From NCBI GenBank assembly GCA_016872795.1, contig VGYZ01000006.1:1-64000 (forward strand): a DNA stretch of 64,000 nt. Direction: 5' to 3'. The translations under genes were made by a program, and so were the position numbers. The notes under the pieces are model-generated. The model was not told where the DNA came from. It was given only the letters and a program-made list of their open reading frames with translations, and made no database searches. This DNA comes from Planctomycetota bacterium. Lineage in GTDB: Bacteria > Planctomycetota > UBA1135 > GCA-002686595. Position 1 is the first letter of the stretch. Every line of letters starts with the position of its first letter. Shown here in pieces: positions 11,393-18,769 of the stretch.

Positions 11393-11857
11393 CTACTGTC
11401 CCGACTGCAGGCGACGCGCGAGGTCGTCGAAGTCGATACCGCCGATCATCGAGCGCTCGATGCGTCCCAGACGCGCAAAGCGCTCCCGCTCCAGGTCGGA
11501 AGCCTCGCCCACGGGCTTCGCCGTTGTGCCACTTGGCAGGGGCAGCGGCAGGCCTAGCGCGGAGGGGCTGACCACCAAAGCGAGGTCGCGCGCAAGCCCC
11601 TCGGGCAGCGGACCGCGGCGATCGAGCGCCGTCCGGGCGCGCGCACACACCTCGAGCGTCTCCTGCAGGTTGCGCTGGATGCGCATGAGCCGGTCGAGGT
11701 CCGGCGAGGGGCCGGCGAGCGACTGCTTCACCTTGGCCGTCGCGACCTCGAGCACGGCGATCAGGCAGTTGAGCTTGTTGCGCAGCCGCTCGCGGTACTC
11801 CGCGGACTCGAGGGGGGGCTCGGACGGGGAATCGCCGCTTTCGAAAGGCTCTTGCAT
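11393..11857 (-). CDS. hypothetical helical protein
   Basis: A protein of about 154 residues with an acidic leader followed by a long helical stretch: YRERLRNKLNCLIAVLEVA and then LDRLMRIQRNLQETLEVC. The first of these is reminiscent of a histidine-kinase dimerisation helix, but the phospho-accepting His is absent, so no kinase or phosphotransfer role is claimed. The C-terminal half has a Pro-rich linker and a helix ending DDLARRLQSGQ. I do not recognise a family. The ATG at 11857 is chosen; an ATG at 11896 would extend it by 13 residues. It lies downstream of the RseB-like gene by about 120 bases. Confidence 0.45.
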   Translation of the reverse strand: MQEPFESGDSPSEPPLESAEYRERLRNKLNCLIAVLEVATAKVKQSLAGPSPDLDRLMRIQRNLQETLEVCARARTALDRRGPLPEGLARDLALVVSPSALGLPLPLPSGTTAKPVGEASDLERERFARLGRIERSMIGGIDFDDLARRLQSGQ

Positions 11858-11977: not shown

Positions 11978-13009
11978 CTACTTGAGCGTCGACGCGATCA
12001 GGTCGAGCAGCTCGTCCGCCGAGGCGCGCCCGAGCGCCATGAAGCGCTCGCCGGCCAGCGTGCCCTCGACATGATTCCACGGGCCGACCGACGGGGCCAC
12101 GCGCATCACATCTTCGCTCAAGAGCGAGGAATCGTCGCCGCCGTGTAGCACGAAGACGACCTCGATGCCATCGGTGAGCGTCGACTTCGCCCAGGGGATC
12201 TCGCCCCCGCCGTCGGGCTCCGGCGAACGCACGATGGTCGACTCGACCAGCAGGAAGCGGCCGCCGTCGCCCTCGGGCAGGCGCGGCCGGAAGCCGAGCG
12301 CCGCGACACGCAAACTCCGCGACTCGGGAAGCGGCTGCTCCTGATTGGAGCTCTCGTCCCACGGGAAGTCCGGGGCGAACTGCGGGTTCAGCTCAAGGCT
12401 CTCGAACTCGACCTTCCCCATCACATGTCCGTCGGTCGCGACCTGCTCGCAGCGCATCACCAGACCGGACTCACGGTCGACCGCGAGGTTGTAGGTGAAC
12501 GCGGCGCCGTGGCGCAGCGCGAAGACCAGCTCCTCGCACTCGCGGCCCGCCACCCGAGTGCGCACGCCGGTCGCGATCGGGCTGTAGTTCACGCACATCT
12601 GGGCCACATCGTGAATGCGGAAGTCCCGGTAGCGGAACAGGAACCCGTCGCGCGATTCCTGCAGCATGTGCCACAGTTCCTCGCGCCGCGGCGGGAGGGT
12701 CGGAGCGATCAGCTCGAGCCCTTGGAGTGCGACACGGCCCTGCCCGTCGCTGGAGACCTCCTCGCGGTAGCTGGTCGAGTAGACCGTCACTCCGACCTGC
12801 CACGACTGCTCGACCCGCCGCACGCCGCTGTAGGCGACCGCAGTCGGCGCCACGCGCATCTTCTGCAGGAGCGCCTCGCTCGGCTGACCGGAGTACAGGA
12901 TCGGCGGCGGGGTCGTCGACGGCGCGCTCACGCTCGACATGTCGCCGCATCCGACCAGCCCGAAGGCGAGGCCGGTGACGGCGGTGAGGAGGAGCGAGGG
13001 GCGGCGCAC
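11978..13009 (-). CDS. RseB/MucB-like sigma-factor regulatory lipoprotein
   Basis: A 343-residue exported protein starting at GTG 13009, with a signal ending FGLVGCG (lipobox). It has the two-part look of RseB. An N-terminal lipoprotein-carrier-like region contains YSGVRRVEQSW, EEVSSDGQGR, NYSPIATG and a central VAGRECEELVF. A strand pair follows, YNLAVDRESGLVMRCEQVATDG then VEFESLELNP, which is very like the RseB segment linking its domains. A smaller C-terminal domain has VLHGGDDSSLL. In the RpoE system RseB shields the anti-sigma factor from proteolysis and senses envelope damage. Its place third in an ECF sigma/anti-sigma operon, 11 bases after the anti-sigma gene, supports that role. Confidence 0.65.
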   Translation of the reverse strand: MRRPSLLLTAVTGLAFGLVGCGDMSSVSAPSTTPPPILYSGQPSEALLQKMRVAPTAVAYSGVRRVEQSWQVGVTVYSTSYREEVSSDGQGRVALQGLELIAPTLPPRREELWHMLQESRDGFLFRYRDFRIHDVAQMCVNYSPIATGVRTRVAGRECEELVFALRHGAAFTYNLAVDRESGLVMRCEQVATDGHVMGKVEFESLELNPQFAPDFPWDESSNQEQPLPESRSLRVAALGFRPRLPEGDGGRFLLVESTIVRSPEPDGGGEIPWAKSTLTDGIEVVFVLHGGDDSSLLSEDVMRVAPSVGPWNHVEGTLAGERFMALGRASADELLDLIASTLK

Positions 13010-13020
13010 GGGAGTGGATC

Positions 13021-13725
13021 CTAGATGTTGTTCTGTTCGAGCAGGCCGCTGGAGACGGTCTCGAACCACGCGCGAGCCGAGGGCGAGAGGTCGCGCGTCG
13101 ACTCCAGACGCTCGACGCGGAATGGGCGCGCGCCGCGAGCGCTCTGGAGGTCGCTCGGCGCGCCGCGGCGCTCGAACGCCTGCGGTGCAAGTGACAGCAG
13201 CGCGATCGCCGCAGCCGCTACGGAGAGCCACGCGCGCGTGGCGAGCTTCCTCTCGGCGCGCGGCTTGGCGAGCTCGCGAGCGACTCGCTGCTCGAGCACC
13301 ATGGGCGCCACGAGACGCGGCAGGCCCTCGAACTGACGCGCGACGCGGGCCTTGACCGGGTTCGCGAGATCCTCGGCCACGAGGCGCTCGAGCACGCTCG
13401 GCGCGCGCGCCGAGAACTGCGGGCCGGTGCCCGACGCCAACGCTTCGACGGCACGGTCGAACTCGTCGCCAGCCTCGACTCGCGCCAGACTCTCGAGCGC
13501 GCGGACCGCGCGTGCGCGGCGGCCTTCGCTCTGGAACTCGCGCTCGCTCAAGCCCTCGAGCTCGCTCGGCGCGACCATCCGCGGCAATGTACGCAACAGC
13601 CCCTCGCGCAGCGCAAGGCGACCGACCCAGCGCTCGCACTCGGCGCACGCATGCTCGCTCAGCGCGGCGCGGTCGAGCGCAGCAACGCGGAACGCGTTGC
13701 AGTCGAAGTGCGCTTGCGGCTTCAT
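13021..13725 (-). CDS. membrane-spanning anti-sigma factor
   Basis: A 234-residue protein with a cytoplasmic N-terminal part, one membrane helix (about residues 166-186, AWLSVAAAAIALLSLAP) and a short outer part of about 45 residues. Near the start SEHACAECERWV gives a His-Cys-Cys cluster reminiscent of the zinc-binding anti-sigma domain, but the spacing is H-x-C-x2-C rather than the usual H-x3-C-x2-C. The middle region has two repeated segments (APSVLERLVAEDLANPVKARV and APMVLEQRVARELAKP). It overlaps the sigma gene by four bases (13722-13725), so the pair is translationally coupled. Confidence 0.7.
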   Translation of the reverse strand: MKPQAHFDCNAFRVAALDRAALSEHACAECERWVGRLALREGLLRTLPRMVAPSELEGLSEREFQSEGRRARAVRALESLARVEAGDEFDRAVEALASGTGPQFSARAPSVLERLVAEDLANPVKARVARQFEGLPRLVAPMVLEQRVARELAKPRAERKLATRAWLSVAAAAIALLSLAPQAFERRGAPSDLQSARGARPFRVERLESTRDLSPSARAWFETVSSGLLEQNNI

Positions 13726-14330
13726 CCGAGGTAGTACCGGTCGAGGATCGGGGTCAGGCGCTGGTCGAGTATGTCGTGCGCGCGAGAGAGGCGCGACTTC
13801 ACGGTGCCGAGGGAGATTTGCAGCGTGTCCGCGATCTCCTCATAGGACTGACTCTCGATGTAGCGCAGCACGGTGATCGTGCGCAACTTCGGGCTCAGGC
13901 TGGAGATCGCGCGCTGCACCTCGTGCTCGAGCTCGTGGCGCGACGCGGCGTGAATCGGCATCTCGGGCTTCTCGTCGCTCGGATGGAAGCGCGCCGACTG
14001 GTGCTCGTCGAATTCCTGAAGCTCGTCGAGCGACACAAGGCTCCGCGCCCGCGAGCGCCGCTTGAGGTCGATCGAGGCGTTGACGGAGATGCGGTAGACC
14101 CAGCTCGAGAACTTGCTCTGGAAGCGGAACCCACCGAGCTTGCGAAACAGGATTCCGAAGGTCTCCTGAGCGGCGTCGAGCGCGTCCGACGGGTTGCCCG
14201 TGATCCGGTAGCAGACATTGTAGACGCGGTCCTTGTAGAGCTCGTACAGCTCCCGGAACGGGCCGTCGAGCCCGGCCAGCGAAGAGCGTTGGCAGGTCCG
14301 AATCAGTTCCGTATCGGGGTCAGGACTCAT
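13722..14330 (-). CDS. ECF-type RNA polymerase sigma factor
   Basis: A 202-residue sigma-70 factor lacking regions 1 and 3. Region 2 includes LYELYKDRVYNVCYRITGN, DALDAAQETFGILFRKLGGF and KFSSWVYRISVNASID. Region 4 includes LSPKLRTITVLRYIESQSYEEIADTLQISLGTVKSRLSRA, a helix-turn-helix for the -35 element. It directs RNA polymerase to a dedicated regulon, probably an envelope-stress set, since the two cotranscribed genes are a membrane anti-sigma factor and an RseB-like lipoprotein. Start taken at ATG 14330, where the sigma domain begins; the frame is open for 33 more codons. A candidate promoter of ECF type lies just upstream, suggesting autoregulation. Confidence 0.88.
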   Translation of the reverse strand: MSPDPDTELIRTCQRSSLAGLDGPFRELYELYKDRVYNVCYRITGNPSDALDAAQETFGILFRKLGGFRFQSKFSSWVYRISVNASIDLKRRSRARSLVSLDELQEFDEHQSARFHPSDEKPEMPIHAASRHELEHEVQRAISSLSPKLRTITVLRYIESQSYEEIADTLQISLGTVKSRLSRAHDILDQRLTPILDRYYLG

Positions 14331-14354
14331 GGGGAGTACTTCAGGCGAGGGTTC

Positions 14355-14379
14355 GACGAGTACCGCGGGCGACCGGTTC
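14355..14379 (-). promoter_or_regulatory. candidate autoregulatory ECF promoter
   Basis: Reading the minus strand, GAACC (14375-14379) is followed after 16 bases by CGTC (14355-14358). This fits the common ECF layout of a GAAC-type -35 and a CGTC-type -10 element. It lies 25 bases before the sigma-factor start codon. Autoregulation is the usual arrangement for such operons; the assignment rests on the motif and position alone. Confidence 0.45.
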
Positions 14380-14432
14380 CCTGCTTCCGCGGCCCGTCCT
14401 TTTGGGGGTCCGCTGCGGCAGGAATTCAATTC

Positions 14433-15404
14433 TTAGCCGCCGATCAGGGCGGCCGGATCGATGGATCGAACCGTGCTGCCGACCGTGTTGACACAGCCGG
14501 GTGGGCAGAAGGTGTCCCACCCGGGCACGCAGTCGGCCGCAATGACCTCATGCGTCACGACCGCACCGACCACGCGCACCACCGTAGTGGTCTGCGCGCA
14601 GATCTCGCCCATGGCGTTCGAGGGAGACTGGTTCGACGGATCGATCGGCCGGTAGGCATGGCCCAGTCCGATGCCCGTGCCGCCCGGCGCGGGCATCGTC
14701 ATCCCAGCGCCGGAGATGCGGACGAACTGGTACAGCGAGCCCTGCAACGCCGCGAAGTCGCAGGTCTCCGCGTCGAGATAGGTGCCCTGCTGCGCGAGCG
14801 TCGCGAAGACCGACGCGCCCCGCCGAGCGAGGACAGCCTCCGCTCGGATGAGGGGATCGAGGACCACGATCTTCGAGCCCAGCGCGCTGCCGTTGCGGAC
14901 CCGAATCGGAGCGCCGCCACGCATGGCCGCAAGCGAGACAGGGAACATCTGTTCGCCCACGCGCGCACCAAACCGCAAGCACTTCGTGTGCAAGTTCCCA
15001 TCGGGGACGAAAACGAGCGTCGCGATGTGCACGCGACGACCCAGCTGAAAGCCGACCATGGCCACCGAAGGGTCGAGAGTCAGCGGGAAATTCGAACTGT
15101 CGAGCGGGTTCGATTCGCGCGCGACTTCCTCCAGATCGCTGAAGCTGTCACCGTCGGTGTCCGCTTGGCAGGGCCAAGTGCCCAGCACGGATTCGAGCTC
15201 ATCGACGAGCCCGTCGCCATCCGTGTCGGCCGAAGGTTGGAGCACCTCGGCCGCCACGGTAGCGGGAGCGCCTCCGGCTCCACCCGCCCACCAAACCGAA
15301 CCACTGGCCGCTGCCAGCGCCAACAGCGCCAGCGCGGCTACCCGTCGTGCGCGGCCACGCCGCGCTTGCCCACCACGACACTCGAGCGAGGTTCGAATCT
15401 TCAC
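14433..15404 (-). CDS. secreted thrombospondin-type-3-repeat protein
   Basis: A 323-residue exported protein starting at GTG 15404. It has an Arg-rich N-region and a hydrophobic helix (VAALALLALAAASGSVWW). About residues 58-90 hold two Asp-rich calcium-binding repeats, ADTDGDGLVDELESVLGT and ADTDGDSFSDLEEV, of the thrombospondin type 3 class common in planctomycete surface proteins. The remaining 220 residues are not recognised; they contain seven or so Cys residues, including CPPGCVN near the end, which may form disulfides. An upstream ATG in frame is excluded because it would fall inside the tRNA gene region. Confidence 0.65.
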   Translation of the reverse strand: MKIRTSLECRGGQARRGRARRVAALALLALAAASGSVWWAGGAGGAPATVAAEVLQPSADTDGDGLVDELESVLGTWPCQADTDGDSFSDLEEVARESNPLDSSNFPLTLDPSVAMVGFQLGRRVHIATLVFVPDGNLHTKCLRFGARVGEQMFPVSLAAMRGGAPIRVRNGSALGSKIVVLDPLIRAEAVLARRGASVFATLAQQGTYLDAETCDFAALQGSLYQFVRISGAGMTMPAPGGTGIGLGHAYRPIDPSNQSPSNAMGEICAQTTTVVRVVGAVVTHEVIAADCVPGWDTFCPPGCVNTVGSTVRSIDPAALIGG

Positions 15405-15551
15405 GCTGTATCCTTGATGTTCGAGGGAAGGGCGTTGGCTAGGAGTCCCCTTTCCTCTTTGCGGCACCTTAGCTCCATTCCCCAATAATGCCAGCCCCCC
15501 CTCCGCGCCCCGCCTCCCCTCCGCGCTCGCTATACTCCCCCGCCCAAAGGG

Positions 15552-15628
15552 GCGCCCGTAGCTCAGCTGGATAGAGCGTCTGCCTCCGGAGCAGAAGGTC
15601 ATGGGTTCGAATCCCGTCGGGCGTACCA
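15552..15628 (+). tRNA. tRNA-Arg (anticodon CCG)
   Basis: A complete cloverleaf can be folded. The acceptor arm GCGCCCG (15552-15558) pairs with CGGGCGT (15618-15624) with one G-U. The D-arm is GCTCAGCTGGATAGAGC. The anticodon stem TCTGC/GCAGA encloses the loop CTCCGGA, giving anticodon CCG for the Arg codon CGG. The T-arm contains GGGTTCGAATCCC. Discriminator A is followed by an encoded CCA (15626-15628). Confidence 0.95.
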
Positions 15629-15821
15629 CGCTTCCTCAGTCCTCGGGGAAACCGCTGGGTCCCGGCCTACGACTCCCCTTTCGGGGCCCGCTCCCCCTGC
15701 GCCCACTGCGCGCCACCCCGCGGTCCCGCCCCTGACCGAGCCCGACCGACCTGCCTCCCTCAGCCCGGTCCGAGTCGCAGGTCAGGAGTCGGGCCCCAAC
15801 GACGAAGAGACGGGCACGAGA

Positions 15822-16560
15822 ATGCAAGCGCAAACACAGCGACGATCAGATCCTCCGCAAGCGGCGTGAGGCTGAGGTCGCCCTCGCGCAGGGCGCACGG
15901 TGAAGGGCGTTTGCCGACAGCTCGAAGTGACGGGGCAGGCTACCGCTGGCGCAAGGAGTTCGGCGGCTTGAAGGTCGACCAGGCCAAGCGACTGCACGAC
16001 CTCGAGCGTGAAAATGTCCGGCTGAAGCGGATCGTGTCGGAGCAGGCGCTCGACATGGCGATCTGGCGCGAGGCTGGCTGGCCTGTGAGCCACAAACGAG
16101 TGGAGAGGATCTGGAGACGAGAGGATCTGAAAGTGCCTGTGCGACAGCCCACACGCGCACGCCTTCGGCTGGACGGCGGACCGTGCATCCGCCCGCGGCC
16201 GCAGCGGCCCAGCCATGTGTGGAGCTACGACTTCGTACACGCCTGTACGCACGGCGGATGTCCACGGAAGCTCATGGCTTTGATGGATGAGTCCACACGC
16301 GAGTGCCTGTCGATCGATGTGTCGCGGCGGCGTGAAGACCCTCTACATCGAGCCGGGCTCCCATGGGAGCACGGCTACATCGAGAGCTTCCACGGCAAGC
16401 TGCGCGACGAGCTTCTGAACGGAGAGATCTTCTTCACGCTGGCCGAGGCACGCGCAGTCATCAAGGCATGGCGGCACGAGTACAACCATGTGCGGCCGCA
16501 CAGCGCGCTGAACTACAGGCCCCCAGCGCCGCTGACCCCGCAGCCAAGAGAGGCCGCCTC
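15822..16560 (+). pseudogene. decayed IS3-family transposase remnant
   Basis: Fragments of both IS3-type frames of the IS407-like branch are recognisable but scrambled. OrfA begins near ATG 15822 (an extra base precedes KRKHSDDQILRKRREAEVALAQG), switches frame for VKGVCRQLEVTGQ, then again for YRWRKEFGGLKVDQAKRLHDLERE. After LDMAI the frame runs straight into OrfB at REAGWPVSHKRVERIWRRE, so the junction and start of OrfB are gone. WSYDFV with the first catalytic Asp is present and YIESFHGKLRDELLNGEIF carries the catalytic Glu. The block with the second catalytic Asp is deleted, and one base is missing before PWEHGYIESF. It cannot encode an active enzyme. It lies about 190 bases after the tRNA-Arg gene. 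Confidence 0.85.
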
Positions 16561-16621
16561 CAGCAAGAATCATCCGCTTGGAGTTCCTTCCCCGCCTTGG
16601 GAGCCACGCGACTCGCATGGC

Positions 16622-18769
16622 TCAGTGGTTGGTCGGGGCGGGGGGCGTCGACGGCGGGACGGGGGGGGCGAGGAAGCGGGAGTGGAAGGTCCAGAAGTGG
16701 CGGTCGAGGGCGGCGAGCAGGGCGTCGGGGTCGTGGCCCATGCCGGGGACCTCGAGGTATTCGTGAGGGATGGCGAGCTGTTCGAGGCGCCCGTGGAAGC
16801 TGCGGTTGAACTCGAGCGTCGAGTCGCGCGCGCCGACCACGATGCGCAGCGGCAGGTGTTGCACGGCGGCGCGGTGGCGCTCGGCGAGCTGCCAGGGACT
16901 CGCGGCGCGGTAGCGCTCGAGATCGCCCCACACGCTCGCGAGCAGATGGTCGCGCGGGGCGGGTTCGCGGTCCCCAGAGACCTCGAAATCGGGGTGCAAC
17001 GGTCCGGCGCCGAGCATCGACACGGCGCCGAAGAGCTCGCTGTGCACGAACCCGAGCCGGCCCGCGCCGTAGCCGCCCATGCTGAAGCCCTCGAGGATGC
17101 GGCCCGCGCGCTCGGCCCGGGTGCGGTAGACGCGATCGACCTCGGGGAGCAGCTCCTCGATGAACACGGTCTCGACCGGCGTACGACCGTCGTGGGAGTC
17201 GCACCACATGCCGTTGGGGAGGCCGTTGGGAAACACGACGATCACGGGCGGCAGGTCGCCGGAGCGAATGGCCGCGTCGAAGCGCGCGGCGACCGGGGCG
17301 ATGCCTGCACCGCTGCCACCGGAGCCGTGCAGCCAATAGACGACGGGGAAGCGCCGCTCGCGCTCGGCGTCGTACTGCGGAGGCGTGTAGATGTGGAAGC
17401 TCACGACCGCCTTGGCGGCGGCGCTGTCGAAGGTGCGGAAGTCGACGCGCGGCGCGCGCACGGCCGGCGTGACCCACGGGAGGGTCGAGTCGGCGGCCGC
17501 TGCGCGCGACTCGCGTGGGGCGACGGGGCGCGACGGGCGTGCGGAGGCGCGCTCGGGACCGAGCTCGAGCAGCGGGCGCAGGAACGGCTCGTCCTCGAAG
17601 CCGCGACCGCCTTGGTCCATCTCGGCGAAGCGCACGATCACGAGCGCGCGTTGCGGCACGAGATACAGGCGCTGCTTGCCCGCACCCGCGGCCTGCGCGA
17701 TGCGCAGCGGCGTCCCGTCGGACGCCCGCAGCCCGCGAAACTCGCGCGCATCGGCCGGAACGATCGCGCCATCGGCCGCCGACACGCCCGTGCCCGGCGC
17801 GTCGTTCGCCAGCCACCATGTGAGGCCGTACTGGCCGTTGGCGGCGCTCGGCACGAAGCAGGCCTCGAGCGCGTCGCGCTCGATCACGGCCATGCGCTCG
17901 ACGCTGCCGTCGTCCTGCGTGCGCTCGACCGTGCAGCCCAGCCGCACGAATTCGCCAAAGCGCGCCCATTCGCGAGCGGTGAGGTGCGCGCCGCCGGGCA
18001 AGTTGGGCTGGCCCTTGGCGTCGAGAGCGAAGCGCTCGCGCGGCAGTGCGAGCCCCGCGGGCTCGAACACGCGCGCGCGCATGTAGTCCCAGTAGCTCTT
18101 CTCCGCGCGCTCGGACGCCGCGAGCTTGCGCGTGAGCAGCGCGCCCCATGCGTAGAAGTGCGACGGACCGTAGCGGAACAAGCGGCCGGGATCGCGCGTG
18201 ATCGGCACGCCGAGCACCGCGCCATACCAGTCCTCGGGTGCGCGCTCGCGCGAACCGCCGCGCAGGCGCCCGGCGAGATCGTTCAAGGGGCCGAGGTCGC
18301 GGATGCCGTAGCCCGCGCGGCCGAGAAGCTCGCTCTCCGGCTCGAGGCCCGAGGAGAGGTCGAGCAGCGAGCGCACGGTCATGCGCGCGGCGCGCGGCTC
18401 GTCTTTCCATTCGACGAGCGTGTCGACGACCGGCTCGTCGAGCTTCACGAGCCCATCTGTCAGCGCCGCGGCAGCGACGATCCCGCAGAAGCTCTTCGTG
18501 CCGCTCGCGAGCGCGTGCGGCCGCTCGGCGCTCCAGCCATTGGCATAGCGCTCGAACACGACCTGCCCCGCATGCAGCACGAGCACCGCGCGCCCCGAGA
18601 AGCGCTCGCTGTAGCTCGCCGCCGCTTCCATGGCCTCCTTCGAAGGCGCACTGGTCTCCGGCGGCCGCAGCTCGAGAAAGCGCTGCGGCGCAGCTTGCGG
18701 CGGAACGGAGGACGGAACAGGCGCGGGCTCCTGCGCGAGGATGCCGAGGACGGCGACGAGGGCGAGCAT
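16622..18769 (-). CDS. beta-lactamase-fold hydrolase fused to an alpha/beta esterase
   Basis: A 715-residue exported protein with two enzyme domains. After a signal peptide, residues about 45-390 form a serine beta-lactamase/penicillin-binding-like domain with SGTK at 89-92 (S-x-x-K nucleophile motif), a candidate second-motif tyrosine in RYGPSHFYAW, and TPLRIAQAAGAGKQ near the third motif. Residues about 440-700 form a putative esterase of the EsteraseD/feruloyl-esterase type with YWLHGSGGSG as oxyanion segment, GFSMGGYGAG as nucleophile elbow and GMGHDPDAL as the His region. Both could hydrolyse esters of carbohydrate or peptide substrates outside the cytoplasm; the real substrate is unknown. 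It is downstream of a broken glycosyltransferase gene on the same strand. Confidence 0.75.
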   Translation of the reverse strand: MLALVAVLGILAQEPAPVPSSVPPQAAPQRFLELRPPETSAPSKEAMEAAASYSERFSGRAVLVLHAGQVVFERYANGWSAERPHALASGTKSFCGIVAAAALTDGLVKLDEPVVDTLVEWKDEPRAARMTVRSLLDLSSGLEPESELLGRAGYGIRDLGPLNDLAGRLRGGSRERAPEDWYGAVLGVPITRDPGRLFRYGPSHFYAWGALLTRKLAASERAEKSYWDYMRARVFEPAGLALPRERFALDAKGQPNLPGGAHLTAREWARFGEFVRLGCTVERTQDDGSVERMAVIERDALEACFVPSAANGQYGLTWWLANDAPGTGVSAADGAIVPADAREFRGLRASDGTPLRIAQAAGAGKQRLYLVPQRALVIVRFAEMDQGGRGFEDEPFLRPLLELGPERASARPSRPVAPRESRAAAADSTLPWVTPAVRAPRVDFRTFDSAAAKAVVSFHIYTPPQYDAERERRFPVVYWLHGSGGSGAGIAPVAARFDAAIRSGDLPPVIVVFPNGLPNGMWCDSHDGRTPVETVFIEELLPEVDRVYRTRAERAGRILEGFSMGGYGAGRLGFVHSELFGAVSMLGAGPLHPDFEVSGDREPAPRDHLLASVWGDLERYRAASPWQLAERHRAAVQHLPLRIVVGARDSTLEFNRSFHGRLEQLAIPHEYLEVPGMGHDPDALLAALDRHFWTFHSRFLAPPVPPSTPPAPTNH

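Follow-up and report, generated by a model that had tools for sequence, protein, structure and literature searches.

Control of ECF sigma factors by RseB is known from Proteobacteria, with the rpoE-rseA-rseB-rseC operon of E. coli and algU-mucA-mucB of P. aeruginosa as the closest described systems, and a point still open for E. coli and Pseudomonas is whether cleavage of the anti-sigma factor requires that RseB first dissociate from it. Planctomycetota contain many ECF sigma factors, few of which have been characterised. Outside Proteobacteria an RseB-like fold occurs in B. subtilis SsdC (YdcC), a MucB/RseB-like protein that acts in spore shape, the term anti-sigma being absent from the paper concerned (PMC7769602).

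The window, i.e. the whole 64,000-nucleotide stretch of planctomycete DNA analysed here, contains three minus-strand genes in series, for an ECF sigma factor, a single-pass anti-sigma factor and an RseB-like lipoprotein. The sigma and anti-sigma genes share 4 bases (ATGA) and 11 bases lie between the anti-sigma end at 13021 and the RseB-like start at 13009, in agreement with the gene order, overlap and gap given in an earlier note on this DNA. The features of the locus are:

13722..14330, minus strand: ECF sigma factor gene (ATG at 14330, stop at 13722, 202 amino acids; Pfam Sigma70_r2 1.4e-15, r4_2 1.2e-14)
13021..13725, minus strand: anti-sigma factor gene (ATG at 13725, 234 amino acids), between the sigma and RseB-like genes in complete loci
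11978..13009, minus strand: RseB/MucB-like lipoprotein gene (GTG at 13009, 343 amino acids; signal peptide, lipobox LVGC, Cys21; PF03888 above cut-off)
14355..14380, minus strand: predicted own promoter GGAACC-N16-CGTC, with ECF-type -35 and -10 boxes conserved in the family and in other families
13639..13656, minus strand: H24-A-C26-A-E-C29 cluster of the anti-sigma factor, a shortened zinc motif (alignment, ligand counts)
13189..13245, minus strand: predicted membrane helix of the anti-sigma factor, residues 161-179 (hydropathy scan)
14433..15629, minus strand: syntenic TSP3-repeat protein gene, upstream (PF18884 3.4e-07)
11393..11857, minus strand: syntenic helical-protein gene, downstream, about 154 amino acids, with orthologues in the same place

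The RseB/MucB-like lipoprotein

The third protein matches PF03888 (MucB_RseB) at 4.4e-10 (39.9 bits, cut-off 22.3), and with E 0.1 or better so do 33 of its 52 relatives; matches to PF17188, the C-terminal domain, are weak (five of the 52, best 0.0059). Because PF03888 also matches in archaeal and other genomes, and is therefore not specific alone, specificity was tested with a profile built from the 52 relatives, for which the sole significant matches among PDB sequences were MucB (1.5e-14) and RseB (about 2e-8), the alignment covering both domains of these chains (positions 134-314/326 of 340). Invariant in all 52 sequences are the lipobox Cys21 and a C-terminal-domain D-G pair, Asp280 and Gly281, the former aligning in the profile alignment with MucB Asp247 (residue number counted by hand), a conserved inter-domain residue (PMC7400510). 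Structure prediction, to which the earlier note had looked for a check of the RseB fold, gave RseB/MucB at each of Foldseek ranks 1-15, but at TM 0.16-0.24 and with a low-confidence AlphaFold model (mean pLDDT 43, with 66-80 in the C-terminal domain) made from six sequences only. As this alignment was too shallow and the model poor, the fold match leans on sequence.

A different reading of these data is that the third protein is a generic lipid carrier of LolA type (LolA/LppX superfamily), i.e. a chance neighbour with no regulatory role. The N-terminal fold is indeed common to LolA, and the archaeal matches to PF03888 are compatible with such a carrier; however, the restriction of the profile matches to MucB and RseB over both domains, the invariance of the C-terminal D-G motif, the retention of gene order in essentially all genomes and the independent fusion, at least twice, of anti-sigma and RseB-like proteins (see below) make this reading very improbable. 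The profile evidence identifies the third protein as a genuine homologue of RseB/MucB with both domains, which bears out the RseB-like assignment originally made.

The anti-sigma factor, its natural fusions and conserved neighbours

A hydropathy scan of the anti-sigma factor gives one hydrophobic helix (residues 161-179) and, beyond it, about 50 residues of outer tail, the corresponding tail of RseA being longer, at about 100 residues. Its N-terminal zinc-type domain contains C9, H24, C26 and C29. No Pfam family matches the window protein; among 42 relatives searched with Pfam none has the RseA family and eight have zf-HC2, weakly. Moreover, the anti-sigma profile of the family misses E. coli rseA, whereas the corresponding profiles for the sigma factor and the RseB-like protein find rpoE and rseB. 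The protein is thus, on present alignments, of zinc type and not recognisably RseA, a qualification to the RseA-like label that the earlier note had given it. Of 68 relatives, 41 have the motif H-x3-C-x2-C and 45 an N-terminal Cys; H-x-C-x2-C occurs in six, mainly from the window genus, and a further 18 are without the zinc motif although their operon is intact. The variant cluster described earlier (H24, C26, C29) is present in the window protein, and represents a shortening of H-x3-C-x2-C at the level of the genus only. The stretch from the N-terminal domain to the membrane helix also carries, in the anti-sigma factor and its aligned relatives, two to five AP..L motifs (LxRxxAPxxLDxRV).

The frequency of H-x3-C-x2-C and of the N-terminal Cys in these relatives might suggest that the zinc-type domain is itself the sensor, of cytoplasmic redox as in RsrA and ChrR, with the RseB-like protein a modulator only. 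Against this stand the relatives that lack the motif beside an intact operon and the shortened form in the window genus; in membrane-bound anti-sigma factors, furthermore, the zinc motif is often thought to be structural (PMC7406223). We accordingly regard a zinc-domain sensor as improbable, and favour sensing through the RseB-like protein.

Of 81 genomes of the planctomycete family to which the window belongs, 77 carry the RseB-like gene, almost always in single copy, among them all 29 of the most complete ones; in the loci retrieved, sigma and anti-sigma genes lie ahead of it wherever the contig is long enough, and the same three-gene order recurs in several other Planctomycetota families. 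With this distribution the operon is a core feature of the family and not the oddity of one genome. The arrangement had been called unexpected in such a genome; within its own group it is common.

Nine genomes encode the anti-sigma and RseB-like parts as a fusion, both profiles matching the same open frame, and a low-complexity linker with many G, S, T and A residues replaces the signal peptide and lipobox. On a tree of sigma and RseB-domain sequences the fusion needs three changes, of which at least two are forced by well supported branches, so that the fusions have at least two independent origins. They support the view that the anti-sigma factor and the RseB-like protein are directly linked, from which binding of the two may be inferred.

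Two neighbouring genes are also conserved. The upstream gene encodes an exported protein with TSP3 (Ca-binding) repeats, in which four cysteines are invariant and a C-terminal LIGG is conserved; its true start lies inside the open reading frame 14433..15629 at an uncertain position, and orthologues are found at the equivalent position in about 65 genomes of the family and at four loci from other families. On the 3' side of the RseB-like gene, the helical-protein gene at 11393-11857, whose product (sequence stretch AEYRERL..KLN.LIAVLEVATAKV) matches no Pfam family, has orthologues in about 54 of 66 genomes, with a median identity of 48%. Both the TSP3 protein and the small helical protein may be further components of the switch. 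Elsewhere near the operon, inspection by eye suggested an IS3-type transposase piece at about 15866-16600 on the plus strand (...HVRPHSALNYRPPAP...) and, at 16622-18769 on the minus strand, a long gene whose product resembles a serine beta-lactamase-type hydrolase linked to an esterase domain. The genome also has three M50 proteases, one of them RseP-like (612 amino acids), and HtrA-like proteases that score below the DegP-family cut-off, such that a two-step route of cleavage, HtrA-type and then RseP-type, is possible for the anti-sigma factor.

The sigma promoter and a candidate regulon

The sigma factor belongs to the ECF superfamily (TIGR02937, 102 bits against a cut-off of 42.9), with regions 2 and 4 both present (Pfam), and its identity across the family is 56-92%. 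It falls under the curated cut-off of the RpoE equivalog TIGR02939 (103 bits against 236) and under those of SigW, SigE and the other equivalogs shown. By the features tested, the third protein of the locus classes as an RseB/MucB member, beside a sigma factor that is not an RpoE equivalog and an anti-sigma factor that is not recognisably RseA. No relatives of the sigma factor were found in viral contigs.

The earlier note had placed GAACC-N16-CGTC 25 bases before the start codon; the distance from GGAACC-N16-CGTC to the sigma ATG is in fact 24 bases, and the motif itself proved to be conserved. GGAAC-N17-CGTC precedes the orthologous sigma gene at one fixed spacing in 62 of 66 family genomes (63 if spacings of 14-19 are admitted), whereas shuffled controls gave 1.2 on average and never more than 5, and related promoter boxes precede the sigma gene in six loci from other Planctomycetota families. 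The fixed spacing in so many genomes, set against the shuffle mean, marks the promoter as real and leads us to infer strongly that the operon is autoregulated.

The earlier note had also pointed to a genome scan for GAACC-N16-CGTC before envelope genes. In that form alone the pattern is not enriched genome-wide (72 sites, the reversed pattern giving 84); a signal emerges only with GGAACC and the position of sites relative to genes, and with these the motif does recur, conserved, before genes for exported proteins. Thus, 8 of the 13 GGAACC sites in the window genome lie outside genes and just before a correctly oriented start. When five genomes of the genus are taken together, 39 of the 102 exact sites are intergenic and so placed, but only 2 of the 43 sites of two control patterns (Fisher p 1.4e-5), these target-site counts being approximate in that genes were called by a simple reading-frame rule.

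Ten target groups keep their boxes in two to five of the genus genomes, the boxes being identical whilst spacer and flanks are near background in most. They include a reprolysin-type metalloprotease, a subtilase, a matrixin, an endonuclease/exonuclease/phosphatase-family protein and a beta-propeller, together with a cytochrome-like protein, a sulfotransferase and proteins without a family. An export signal is present in nine of the ten (by eye or by a lenient, home-made signal-peptide rule), an enrichment that, at a base rate of 44%, is moderate evidence only. The sigma factor probably drives genes for exported enzymes in the window genus. Outside the genus, the nuclease target promoter, kept within it, is absent but for one differently placed match, and in two distant family members 5 of 30 motif sites are promoter-like, few of them before exported proteins. 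Two of the predicted targets (L187:1550-2611 and L192:1-1491) share a Cys-containing C-terminal stretch, YCTA...GC.PAL..., which may serve exported proteins of the family as a sorting domain.

These sites might instead be read by another ECF sigma factor, the window sigma regulating itself only. The -35 element GGAAC is common to many ECF groups, and beyond the genus the targets are no longer the same, as such a reading would allow; nevertheless, both boxes and their spacing are identical to those of the sigma factor's own promoter and the sites are enriched over controls. We consider exclusive use by another sigma factor unlikely, if deserving of some weight, and retain the window sigma as the probable reader. 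Since other ECF sigma factors in the cell may read the same boxes, however, the targets may not belong to it alone.

A proposed switch and its relation to known systems

Taking together the gene order, the sigma and RseB-like homologies, the own promoter, the fusions and the conserved target promoters, all read from sequence, we consider it likely that the locus is an autoregulated switch of ECF sigma factor, membrane anti-sigma factor and RseB-type protein. Points that speak against it are the missing RseA homology and the shorter outer tail of the anti-sigma factor, the HtrA scores under the DegP-family cut-off and the weak motif signal in the two distant family members. In the mechanism that we propose, the zinc-type N-terminal domain of the anti-sigma factor would sequester the sigma factor at the inner membrane, whilst the RseB-like lipoprotein on the outer face would bind the outer tail of the anti-sigma factor and protect it against proteolytic attack. 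Once the RseB-like domain had bound a lipophilic or mis-exported ligand, this contact would change, upon which an HtrA-type and then an RseP-type protease would cut the anti-sigma factor. The freed sigma factor would transcribe its own operon from GGAACC-N16-CGTC and, in the window genus, also a gene set whose products are mostly exported enzymes and surface proteins. In the nine fused relatives the shield would be built into the anti-sigma factor, and the signal would pass by intramolecular rearrangement rather than dissociation. The natural fusions consequently bear on the question of RseB departure: because a fused shield cannot leave, dissociation would not be the sole route by which RseB protection is relieved.

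More tentatively, Planctomycetota might possess their own branch of RpoE-RseB control, one that governs the export of hydrolases and surface proteins and not classical outer-membrane repair, that includes a TSP3 component, and in which the RseA/RseB sensor has repeatedly been made into one membrane-spanning receptor; we hold this wider picture to be possible, at somewhat less than even chances. A conserved planctomycete switch, with a promoter readable in dozens of genomes, would in any case offer a ready regulon model for the phylum. The fusions, the target promoters of exported proteins at genus level and the syntenic TSP3 and helical-protein genes are new here. A search of the open literature, outside which many subscription papers lie, found no report of planctomycete RseB or of RseB-like anti-sigma fusions, and the text of PMC7406223 describes neither an RseB partner nor a fused RseB domain, RseB appearing there in a reference title only.

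With class I zinc-type anti-sigma factors (RsiW, ChrR and RsrA groups) the planctomycete protein shares a single membrane helix and, in most relatives, the N-terminal H-x3-C-x2-C, from which the window genus departs in having H-x-C-x2-C. The likeness to SsdC lies in an RseB-like fold outside Proteobacteria, but here the RseB-like protein is encoded beside a sigma/anti-sigma pair. The E. coli and P. aeruginosa systems are similar in their order of sigma factor, membrane anti-sigma factor and RseB, in an autoregulated ECF promoter and in a two-domain RseB homologue. In contrast to both, the planctomycete RseB-like protein is a predicted lipoprotein, the anti-sigma factor is of zinc type and not recognisably RseA or MucA, fused anti-sigma/RseB forms exist, and the predicted targets are exported enzymes and not the classical outer-membrane chaperone regulon; unlike in E. 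coli, moreover, no rseC lies beside the operon and the flanking genes differ.
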